A DNA stretch of 31,755 nucleotides from a virus. Made by a program: the position numbers and the translations under genes. This document shows positions 2,012 through 4,258 of this stretch, one piece after another; position 1 is the first letter of the stretch, and each line of letters starts with the position of its first letter. Under the pieces are notes generated by a model. That model saw only the letters and a list, made by a program, of their open reading frames with translations, was not told where the DNA came from and did not search any database. Location: the IMG/VR virus record IMGVR_UViG_3300034061_001015, positions 1-31,755 of that record, one strand, 5' to 3'.

Positions 2012-2265
2012 AAGCACCAACCAACCAAACAGCCGCAATATTACAGAGTCTAATTAGAGATAGTTATGTTACTGAGCAAGAATTTTGCTTTAACGGTTTT
2101 AGAGCAAGAATAAGTGAACTTAGGCAGTTAGTAACAATAGATACTCAAAAGGTTAATTATATTAACCAATTTGGACATAGTAGTTATTACAACCAACATT
2201 CGCTAAATAAAGAAAATAAAAAATTAGCAAAAGAAGTTTACGAAAAAATAAATTTGCGAAAGTAA
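2008..2265 (+). CDS. Small winged-helix-like protein
   Basis: 85 aa. Residues about 5-45 have the pattern of a compact winged helix seen in small phage proteins (AAILQSLIRDS, then FNGFRARISELR, where the last helix would contact DNA). The C-terminal half is basic. The start overlaps the ninG stop. It is the last gene before an independent promoter, and the TTG box of that promoter lies within its final codons. A regulator or replication accessory role is inferred only. Confidence 0.5.
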   Translation: MKAPTNQTAAILQSLIRDSYVTEQEFCFNGFRARISELRQLVTIDTQKVNYINQFGHSSYYNQHSLNKENKKLAKEVYEKINLRK

Positions 2266-2283
2266 AATAAAAGGTTACTTTTG
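2254..2283 (+). promoter_or_regulatory. Bacteroidota-type promoter for the 2289-2394 RNA
   Basis: TTG at 2254-2256, a 19-nt spacer, then TACTTTTG at 2276-2283, an exact match to the Bacteroidota housekeeping promoter (TTG-N19-TAnnTTTG). Transcription should start near 2289-2291, immediately before hairpin 1 of the RNA candidate. Confidence 0.8.
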
Positions 2284-2288
2284 TAGTA

Positions 2289-2394
2289 CAATTAGTTGAG
2301 GTCGAAGCCAACTAACATAAATCAGAACTTTAACATGGTGTAAAAGTATATGATTATAGCCCCTTTAGCTTCGACCTATTGGGGCTATTTTCGT
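2289..2394 (+). ncRNA. Candidate ~105-nt structured RNA with kissing loops
   Basis: Hairpin 1 has stem TTAGTTG (2292-2298) with CAACTAA (2309-2315) and loop AGGTCGAAGC (2299-2308). Hairpin 2 has stem ATAGCCCC (2356-2363) with GGGGCTAT (2381-2388) and a 17-nt loop holding GCTTCGACCT (2368-2377). The two loops are perfectly complementary over 10 nt, so they can form a kissing-loop or pseudoknot. Hairpin 2 is followed by TTTT and can act as terminator. With the promoter just upstream this makes a compact stand-alone RNA. It holds no meaningful ORF. It could instead be a 5' leader controlling the gene at 2413, or a replication-linked structure. Confidence 0.65.
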
Positions 2395-2412
2395 TTAAAT
2401 TAATTATTAATT

Positions 2413-2715
2413 ATGAATTATCAAACAATGCCATTCGGCAAATTTAAAGGCACTTTAATTAAAGAATTGCCAACAAATTACATTGCTTATGCCTTAGAAT
2501 CATTTGAACTTCCTGATGAATTAACAGGAAAATTAAAAGATGAAATTTGCGAAAGACTGTATTTATTTCCAAAATCAATACCTTTAGCTAAAAATTTTAA
2601 TGATGTGTATAGAAAGCTGGCAGTAAAATATCATCCTGATAGGGGTGGAAGTGGTATTGAAATGAAAGTTTTAAATGAGTTTCGTGATTTATATTATATT
2701 GATTTGCCATTTTAG
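2413..2715 (+). CDS. DUF3820-J-domain fusion protein
   Basis: 100 aa with two recognisable parts. Residues 4-52 match the DUF3820 family (MPFGKFKGTLIKELPTNYI), a small domain also found at the C-terminus of exonuclease X-type proteins. Residues about 62-95 carry the core of a DnaJ J-domain, YRKLAVKYHPDRGG, with the diagnostic HPD at 74-76, which stimulates the Hsp70 DnaK. Position ahead of the DUF6291-like protein and the DnaB-like ATPase suggests recruitment of host DnaK to remodel a replication complex, as lambda replication does with host DnaJ. That role is inferred. It lies 25 nt after the structured RNA. Confidence 0.75.
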   Translation: MNYQTMPFGKFKGTLIKELPTNYIAYALESFELPDELTGKLKDEICERLYLFPKSIPLAKNFNDVYRKLAVKYHPDRGGSGIEMKVLNEFRDLYYIDLPF

Positions 2716-2717
2716 TT

Positions 2718-3287
2718 ATGAGAAAAGGATTTAATTTTTATCGCAGCTATTTTGAAGTATCAATGGAATTAAAAGATAGTGAATTTATAGAATTTATTAA
2801 GGCATTACTTCAAAAGCAATTTAATGGAATTGAGCCAACTAATTTAAAAGGAATGGCTAAGTTTGCATACCTAAGCCAAAAGCACTCAATAGACAGTCAA
2901 GTTAAAGGTTATGAGGACAAAACAAAAGAAATACTTATTGAAATTATAGGGGGTTCGGTAGGGGGTTCGGTAGGGGGTTCGGTACAAGAGAAAGAGAAAG
3001 AGAAAGAGAAAGTACAATTAAGTAAGAAATTAATTAAGGTTATTTTTCAAGAATCTAATTTATTTGATAAGAATATTTTTAAATCTGAATTTCCTGAATG
3101 GAACACCACAAAACTTTTGTACTATTACGAAGCTGCAATAGCTTATTCAAACGAAGGTAATAAATATGTAAATTGGAAGTCAGCTATAAATAATTGGGCT
3201 AAACGTGACGAGTTGCAAGGCAAGCTAAAATTTGAAGCAAAAGGAGTTGACCCAAGAAACCCTAAAAATTTGAGGGTTATAATATGA
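2718..3287 (+). CDS. DUF6291-like primosomal or helicase-loader candidate
   Basis: 189 aa. The N-terminal ~80 residues (FNFYRSYFEVSMELKDSEFIEFIKALL...NGIEP) fit the DUF6291-type domain found at the start of phage replication proteins of the DnaD/primosome kind. A linker of GGSV repeats and EK repeats (about 78-98) leads to a helical C-terminal domain (about 100-175) with the W.SAINNWAKRDE pattern that such proteins carry near their end. It overlaps the DnaB-like gene by ATGA, which supports a helicase-loader or initiator role. The linker is coded by tandem DNA repeats and may vary in length. Confidence 0.6.
   Translation: MRKGFNFYRSYFEVSMELKDSEFIEFIKALLQKQFNGIEPTNLKGMAKFAYLSQKHSIDSQVKGYEDKTKEILIEIIGGSVGGSVGGSVQEKEKEKEKVQLSKKLIKVIFQESNLFDKNIFKSEFPEWNTTKLLYYYEAAIAYSNEGNKYVNWKSAINNWAKRDELQGKLKFEAKGVDPRNPKNLRVII
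2949..3011 (+). repeat. In-frame tandem repeats (12 bp x3, then 6 bp x4)
   Basis: Three perfect copies of GGGGGTTCGGTA (2949-2960, 2961-2972, 2973-2984) are followed by four copies of GAGAAA (2988-3011). Both units are multiples of three and code for GGSV and EK linker repeats. Slippage would change linker length without breaking the frame. The G5 tracts stand out in an AT-rich genome and could form G-quadruplex-like structure. Confidence 0.95.
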
Positions 3288-4258
3288 AAATTAGAAAATT
3301 TAATGATGTTGCAGAAAAGGTTTTTGAACTTCACAAAAATAATACATCAAATTTATTAAGTACTGGTTTTGAAACATTAGACCCTTTTTATCAAATTAGA
3401 CCAGGGAACACAACAATTATTTATGGTTATCCAAGCTCAGGGAAAAGTGAGTTTGCATTTCAATTACTAATTTCATTAAGTGCAAGAAAATACAAAAAGC
3501 ATTTAATCTATTCACCTGAAACTGGAAGCGCTGAAGAAATATTTAGCGAAATAGCACACTCATTAACTGGCAAAAGCTTTGATAAAAGATTCCAACATAA
3601 CTACATTACTGAAGCAGAAATTTACAAAGTACAGCCATTTATTCAAGACCATTTTACAATTATCGAAGATGATGACATAAGCGGTTTAACACTTGAAAAA
3701 TATTTTGAAGTAGCAAAACAAGTAAAAATGGATAACGGATTAGATTGCACTTTGATTGATAACTTTAACGATTTACAACATAACAGCTCCGACCTTAGTA
3801 ATATTGCGGCTTATTTACCTTCTTTTTTAATGAAGTGGAATAAGTTTAGTAAATTACACAACCTGCATTCTTTTATGGTTTGCCATGCTAGAAACCCAAC
3901 TGGAGTAAAGTCGGGCGAATTACCAAAGGCGCCAAGCGTATTTGAAATAAATGGAGGTCAAGCGTGGTATGCAAAAGCTCAAAGCTTGATATGTATTGAT
4001 AGGCCATACGAAGAAATAAATGGGTTAATTCAGCAATCAAATACAGTGGAAATTGACATTAAGAAAATAAAACCTAAAATAGTAGGTAAAAAAGGAGTTG
4101 TAAAACTTGACTTTGAATTTAGTAAAAAATGTTATTCGGAAATAATAAACGGTGAAATTCATAGAATTGATACTGGTTTTAAAGAATCATACAAAGCACC
4201 AACAAATGCAATACAATCAACAATAAATTTAAACGATCCATTTAAAGCACCTTTTTAA
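3284..4258 (+). CDS. DnaB-like RecA-fold ATPase, replicative helicase candidate
   Basis: 324-aa RecA-fold ATPase resembling the C-terminal motor domain of DnaB. Walker A is GYPSSGKS at 48-55, preceded by the typical TGFETLD...IRPGNTTII lead. The HLIYSPETGSAEEIF segment is the conserved step after Walker A, LDCTLIDNFNDL (about 155-166) is Walker B, and VCHARNP (about 205) is the sensor-like strand. The N-terminal DnaB domain is missing, and the protein is shorter than full DnaB (about 450 aa), as is common in small phages. It follows the loader candidate directly. A non-helicase recombination ATPase is the main alternative. Confidence 0.75.
   Translation: MKIRKFNDVAEKVFELHKNNTSNLLSTGFETLDPFYQIRPGNTTIIYGYPSSGKSEFAFQLLISLSARKYKKHLIYSPETGSAEEIFSEIAHSLTGKSFDKRFQHNYITEAEIYKVQPFIQDHFTIIEDDDISGLTLEKYFEVAKQVKMDNGLDCTLIDNFNDLQHNSSDLSNIAAYLPSFLMKWNKFSKLHNLHSFMVCHARNPTGVKSGELPKAPSVFEINGGQAWYAKAQSLICIDRPYEEINGLIQQSNTVEIDIKKIKPKIVGKKGVVKLDFEFSKKCYSEIINGEIHRIDTGFKESYKAPTNAIQSTINLNDPFKAPF

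Follow-up and report, generated by a model that had tools for sequence, protein, structure and literature searches.

It was found that a tailed-phage contig (the window: 31,755 nucleotides, IMG/VR record IMGVR_UViG_3300034061_001015) carries, ahead of its replication operon, an RNA sequence with its own promoter and two hairpins (P1 and P3) whose loops (L1 and L3) are complementary to each other. This arrangement is real and beyond chance in the window. Since the loops covary in relatives, sequence comparison indicates that the L1-L3 pairing is also real. The RNA appears to represent a phage RNA family that has not been described before, from a phylum that has received little study; the family is absent from Rfam, and strong covariation, not one lone example, defines it. 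Its placement suits a leader for the operon behind it better than a gene standing by itself. I see about an even chance that early phage operons use it as a modular, cis-acting leader (an attenuator or antiterminator with a homotypic kissing contact), in which L1-L3 kissing would set the read-through of P3.

The RNA and its neighbours in the window

The first-pass annotation had described a promoter (TTG-N19-TACTTTTG) followed by two hairpins with fully complementary loops, and the sequence is as described (Table 1): L1 and L3 match exactly at 10 of 10 positions. The RNA start was placed about 6 nt past the -7 element. The central hairpin P2 was absent from that description; a P2-like A/T hairpin also occurs in relatives, with weaker backing than P1, P3, and the loops have. 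A terminator-like site was predicted at 2366-2387, in the P3 region. All features of the family are present: promoter, P1, P3 with a U-tract, complementary loops, and a start codon close behind.

Table 1. Features of the RNA locus and the downstream operon (positions in the window)
Feature	Position	Strand	Remarks
Promoter, Bacteroidota-type	2254-2283	+	TTG 2254-2256 (-33), N19, TACTTTTG 2276-2283 (-7, TAnnTTTG)
Predicted leader RNA or terminated small RNA, ~105 nt	2290-2396	+	Putative start; covariation in relatives
P1 hairpin	2292-2315	+	7 bp, TTAGTTG 2292-2298 / CAACTAA 2309-2315
Kissing loop L1	2299-2308	+	AGGTCGAAGC, 10 nt; exact complement of L3, with which it covaries
P2 central A/T-rich hairpin	2320-2355	+	Predicted fold; outer AATCA/TGATT, inner ACTTT/AAAGT
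P3 terminator hairpin	2356-2388	+	8 bp, ATAGCCCC 2356-2363 / GGGGCTAT 2381-2388
Kissing loop L3	2368-2377	+	GCTTCGACCT, within the 17-nt P3 loop; exact complement of L1
U-tract after P3	2389-2396	+	TTTCGTTT; T-rich tails behind P3 in relatives too
First downstream gene, 100 aa, J-domain-like C-terminal half	2413-2715	+	Begins 24 nt behind P3
DUF6291 phage protein, downstream operon	2718-3287	+	
DnaB-like helicase (phrog_5482), downstream operon	3284-4258	+	

The RNA of the window folds better than shuffled sequences (z = -2.86), and GGTCGAAG occurs in the window at these two sites only, where 0.06 occurrences are expected. A scan of the whole window for the full arrangement (a promoter, a hairpin, and a terminator hairpin with a complementary loop) found one site, with a score of 35 and a 10-nt loop match. 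The same scan of 25.4 Mb of Markov-simulated sequence gave 23 hits, the best scoring 31 and the longest loop match being 9. The promoter string taken alone has no significance within the window; the promoter counts as evidence because its fixed position is conserved in all relatives, not because of the string itself. No Rfam family was matched: a search of the whole window against Rfam 15 gave 0 matches, and the best sub-threshold scores were far under the gathering cut-offs.

The RNA had been placed between recombination and replication genes, and the neighbours agree. Erf, a DnaA-HTH protein, and NinG are encoded upstream, and the operon of the DnaB-like helicase lies downstream. The N-terminal part of the first downstream protein matches Pfam QSregVF_b, and an HPD motif lies within KYHPDRGG; it is an odd fusion to open a replication operon. 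The contig has terminase, portal, and tape measure genes, with the terminase genes at 11.4-13.9 kb, 9 kb from the RNA. Judging from the promoter type, the gene neighbours, and the Polaribacter isolates described below, the host probably belongs to the Bacteroidota (Flavobacteriia).

Relatives of the RNA in other phages

Dozens of related phage contigs in IMG/VR carry versions of the RNA. In L001-L004, it is identical or nearly so and precedes the same J-domain gene, while diverged copies in L010-L015 again have the J-domain gene behind them. A search with the loop sequence led to L037 and L041, which have a ParB/MT-A70 methylase gene behind the RNA. Since a search without fixed loops was wanted, loci were also fetched by the helicase and by NinG and then scanned for mutually complementary hairpin loops. 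New loop pairs were found in this way: AGGTCGAATC/GATTCGACCT, AGGTTGTAGC/GCTACAACCT, AGGTTGCAGC/GCTGCAACCT, GTCGCATCT/AGATGCGAC, GTCAGAGC/GCTCTGAC, TTGCAGC/GCTGCAA, AGTAGAGAA/TTCTCTACT, AGTAAGGC/GCCTTACT, and GTGAGAGC/GCTCTCAC. A covariance model from which the kissing helix had been left out revealed more copies with previously unseen loops (GTAGTAG/CTACTAC, GTAAGAGC/GCTCTTAC, and GTGAGAG/CTCTCAC).

Several candidates were rejected. Across 84,980 genomes of bacteria and archaea, the exact-loop pattern gave 36 hits; those inspected (the candidates with 6 of 7 bp of P1 and four from Bacteroidota) lack the architecture and are apparently due to chance. Among 21 viral hits of this pattern, nine (spacing 72 or 81) are coincidences in coding regions. 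A look-alike at L167 8257-8360 (GTCAGAA/TTCTGAC) scores 30 and is inseparable from chance, since two of the 23 simulated hits reach 30; no gene lies directly behind it. The covariance model found nothing in 395 Bacteroidota genomes, which is weak evidence of absence because nine candidates were scored per genome. Among isolated phages, no close DNA relative of the window was found.

Covariation of the stems and the loops

The conservation and covariation in related phages on which the first-pass annotation had made its proposal depend were both found. In an alignment of 17 sequences, 92.9% of the cells are standard pairs and 12 pairs have double-sided changes. The covariation score is 0.347; shuffles score 0.142, and slid versions do not exceed 0.084. 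In P1, four of the six aligned pairs have double-sided changes (A-U to G-C and A-U to U-A) and 100% of the cells are paired. P3 pairs have also changed on both sides in relatives. In the kissing helix, the substitutions include C-G to U-A, A-U to C-G, A-U to U-A, and G-C to U-A.

At least 17 different loop sequences exist across the relatives, each complementary to its own partner over 7-10 bp. Twenty-five copies with 13 different L1 sequences were delimited by hand; L1 matches its own L3 over 7-10 nt and the L3 of others over 3.9 nt on average. In a permutation test with these copies, none of 100,000 permutations reached the observed total complementarity, although the test is biased for the first group of copies because their scanner demanded complementarity. 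This bias does not touch the copies found through the covariance model or through a neighbouring protein, and their loops are complementary as well. Thus, the kissing or pseudoknot pairing that had been suggested for the window is borne out by the covarying loops.

Placement of the RNA and exchange of the neighbouring genes

All 27 tabulated copies have TAnnTTTG (or TAnnATTG) 87-96 nt upstream of L3 and an ATG 12-50 nt behind the P3 stem. The first-pass annotation had regarded the RNA as a self-contained noncoding RNA. A discrete structured RNA with its own predicted promoter and terminator is consistent with this, whereas a free-standing unit is doubtful because every copy lies 12-50 nt before a start codon, leaving no room for a second promoter. 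A conserved antisense promoter was not found; opposite-strand TAnnTTTG motifs within about 260 nt are sporadic and differ in position.

Most copies open an operon in which a variable initiator or accessory gene is followed by a DnaB-like helicase gene. The RNA also precedes an SNF2-like helicase/N6-methylase gene in L101, L096, L135, and L141 and an HNH endonuclease gene in L084 and L196. Across the copies, the genes behind the RNA are unrelated to one another (J-domain, MT-A70 methylase, HNH, Lin1244 initiator, DUF6291, and SNF2-methylase), so the RNA element would work whatever the gene encodes. This exchange speaks against the J-domain gene as a specific target, one of the roles proposed at first. 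The genes upstream of the RNA are exchanged too, as between the window and L002, and the switch of the downstream gene can fall exactly at the RNA end.

Two copies of the RNA, differing in their loops, occur in each of five genomes (L101, L096, L135, L141, and the L098 contig); in the pairs compared, the loops of paralogues cross-match over 4 nt or less. In four of them, the paralogous leaders flank one exchangeable gene, that of the SNF2-like helicase/methylase: L101 (1400-1507 and 3788-3899), L096 (4643-4751 and 7190-7295), L141 (7088-7196 and 9475-9583), and L135 (3051-3159 and 5367-5475).

Cultured Polaribacter phages and turnover of the loops

A scan of seven isolate records found one site, in Polaribacter phage Danklef_1 (28556-28657, GGTGGAA/TTCCACC, score 32). 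BLAST from this site revealed that it is common to Danklef_1-5 and Freya_1-10. The predicted transcript of Danklef_1 and Freya_1 would be about 100 nt, from a TATATTTG start to the U-tract. The identity between the two phages ends at the U-tract, and the sequences are unrelated beyond it, where the next gene begins. The recombination boundary between Danklef_1 (L218, at 28657) and Freya_1 (L220) thus lies exactly at the RNA 3′ end, where Danklef_1 has an extra gene inserted. Integrases are encoded by both Danklef and Freya (PMC8776804).

The gene that follows this site has four metagenomic relatives that were inspected without any requirement on the loops. The RNA is clear in L227 (CTCCGACA/TGTCGGAG), L228 (GGTTCGAC/GTCGAACC), and L229 (GCTCTCAC/GTGAGAGC). 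L226 perhaps carries it; its score of 25 in a relaxed scan is within the noise. In L227 (406-700), the L1 sequence CTCCGACA is repeated directly before the start codon, and L3 could pair there too. Translation control through such a loop-like sequence was rejected as a general explanation, since L227 is the only copy that has one.

Between L228 and L229, identity reaches 97.9% over the promoter and 97.5% downstream but 50-61% in the RNA. Both loops have been replaced and complementarity is kept in both contigs. The RNA (around 1531 and 2713, respectively) is a hot spot of turnover between near-identical flanks. This turnover exceeds what a purely structural role needs. A self-recognition function would explain the replacement of the loops; recombination or drift could explain it as well.

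Discussion

In the favoured explanation, a host-type promoter would start the RNA directly at P1, followed by P2 and the terminator hairpin P3, and the P1 loop would kiss the P3 loop. The gap separating P3 from the ATG is too short to hold a promoter, so operon transcription from here must pass P3. The kissing would most likely set how often RNA polymerase reads through P3, and the products would be a short terminated RNA and a share of full-length replication-operon mRNA. Transcription, termination, and the control of read-through are inferred from the sequences, and the effect of kissing could be to raise or to lower read-through. In members with 7-9 bp, a nested L1:L3 helix costs 8-19 kcal/mol relative to P1 plus P3 and is uncompetitive; thus, kissing rather than strand exchange would be common to all members. 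For members with 10 bp, the calculated energies of the two folds lie close together (-24.9 versus -25.8 kcal/mol for the window), and a mutually exclusive switch is possible there, including in the window. I suspect that the kissing core of the window consists of 7-8 of the 10 complementary base pairs, as in the 7-8-bp members. Dimer formation, also raised at first, is possible, since intramolecular and intermolecular kissing leave the same covariation. Against a cis-acting leader, P3 could be a full terminator and the operon could be served by upstream read-through; the fast turnover of the loops also counts against it.

The RNA might instead be a trans-acting phage small RNA whose loops pair with other phage or host RNAs, its place before an operon being incidental. 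A 5′ end within a stem and a 3′ terminator favour RNA stability, and this compact, well-folded RNA has both, together with its own promoter, in prediction. However, neither loop sequence has a second copy in the window and every copy is tightly placed before a start codon. Moreover, the loops differ among close relatives and between copies in one genome, which argues against a shared target in trans. I regard this explanation as rather unlikely. The unlike loops would be compatible with contacts inside a single molecule or among identical copies of it. The latter is the basis of another explanation, in which a terminated leader pairs with a matching leader still being transcribed (L1 with L3 and L3 with L1). 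The RNA would then gauge how much of itself is present and might confer immunity, specific to its type, against related phages, the loops diversifying against cross-talk. Loop pairs that outpace the flanking DNA and stay complementary (L228/L229 and L093/L094), paralogues with unlike loops in one genome, and the integrases of Danklef and Freya (PMC8776804) are in line with it. So is the precedent of GOLLD, whose covarying kissing loops were first drawn as intramolecular and proved to be intermolecular (PMC12286853). Yet intramolecular pairing should win kinetically, and the divergence of the loops could be neutral or come from recombination; I consider such control in trans unlikely. The bolder idea of the loop pair as a code for self-recognition, by which a leader answers in trans only to RNA of its own type, is likewise rather unlikely. 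It resembles the loops of plasmid incompatibility, except that here both partners are in one RNA.

Alternatively, the folded nascent RNA may bind RNA polymerase, which would then read through P3 and later terminators, as with put of phage HK022. Like put, the structured elements lie at the promoter start ahead of early genes (PMC9378689). This is improbable, because put suppresses termination further downstream while the terminator here belongs to the structure itself, the loops are hypervariable, and no conserved primary sequence outside the stems suggests a contact with RNA polymerase. An insulator, combining the terminator of the upstream operon with the promoter of the next one, would suit a site at operon boundaries with genes exchanged on both sides, the loop pairing only stabilising the RNA end. 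This is very unlikely, since the terminator lies downstream of the promoter, not upstream, and would stop the next operon too. A DNA element (operator or origin repeats), with two inverted 10-bp sites for a DNA-binding protein, would account for an inverted repeat close to replication genes. It has hardly any probability: the P1 and P3 stems, not just the 10-mers, change with compensation, which speaks strongly against a mere DNA inverted repeat, and the polarity of the promoter and the U-tract is conserved.

By working principle, the nearest candidates for comparison are the attenuators of replication genes and HK022 put. The attenuators of pT181 and pIP501 consist of a leader terminator before a replication gene, controlled through loop-loop contacts with an opposite-strand antisense RNA. 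The phage RNA shares the terminator-bearing leader (predicted here) before a gene and the loop-loop contacts, but both partners are in one RNA instead of a leader and an antisense RNA, and the conserved antisense promoter behind the leader was not found. In ColE1, RNA I and RNA II form kissing loops of the 7-bp class in replication control, and the loop sequence sets the specificity. The kissing class and the nearness to replication control are alike, whereas ColE1 uses two RNAs rather than one and has a primer role, the leader here being known from sequence only. The pRNA of phage phi29 (about 120-174 nt) is encoded near packaging genes and has a 5′/3′ helix and two mutually complementary loops. 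The loops are the shared trait; here there is no closing helix, and the RNA lies in the replication region. To my knowledge, HK022 put has no loop-loop covariation of the L1-L3 type. Shared features would be a cis effect of the nascent phage RNA on termination and structured hairpins close to where an early transcript begins; put, however, has no internal terminator, and its sequence, host, and promoter type are unrelated (PMC9378689). GOLLD and ROOL are also phage-encoded structured RNAs with covarying kissing loops, but they are hundreds of nucleotides long and form multimeric cages, unlike this RNA of about 105 nt with a terminator and a tie to operon starts (PMC12286853). In mycobacterial prophages, a noncoding RNA is likewise linked to phage replication: RNA-based origins drive extrachromosomal prophage initiation beside parABS, and no kissing structure was reported (PMC7157519). 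The main text describing Danklef and Freya does not mention a noncoding or small RNA (PMC8776804), and a literature search, incomplete in coverage, found nothing like a kissing-loop leader.

With this family, a putative RNA switch would stand where phage replication operons begin. Is read-through governed by kissing of the terminator loop, and what drives the rapid replacement of the loop pairs? With cultured, integrase-bearing Polaribacter phages and natural loop-swapped variants, both questions are directly testable. If self-recognition is true, the leader would measure phage gene dosage or give type-specific immunity, and its loops would diversify under selection and yet stay complementary.
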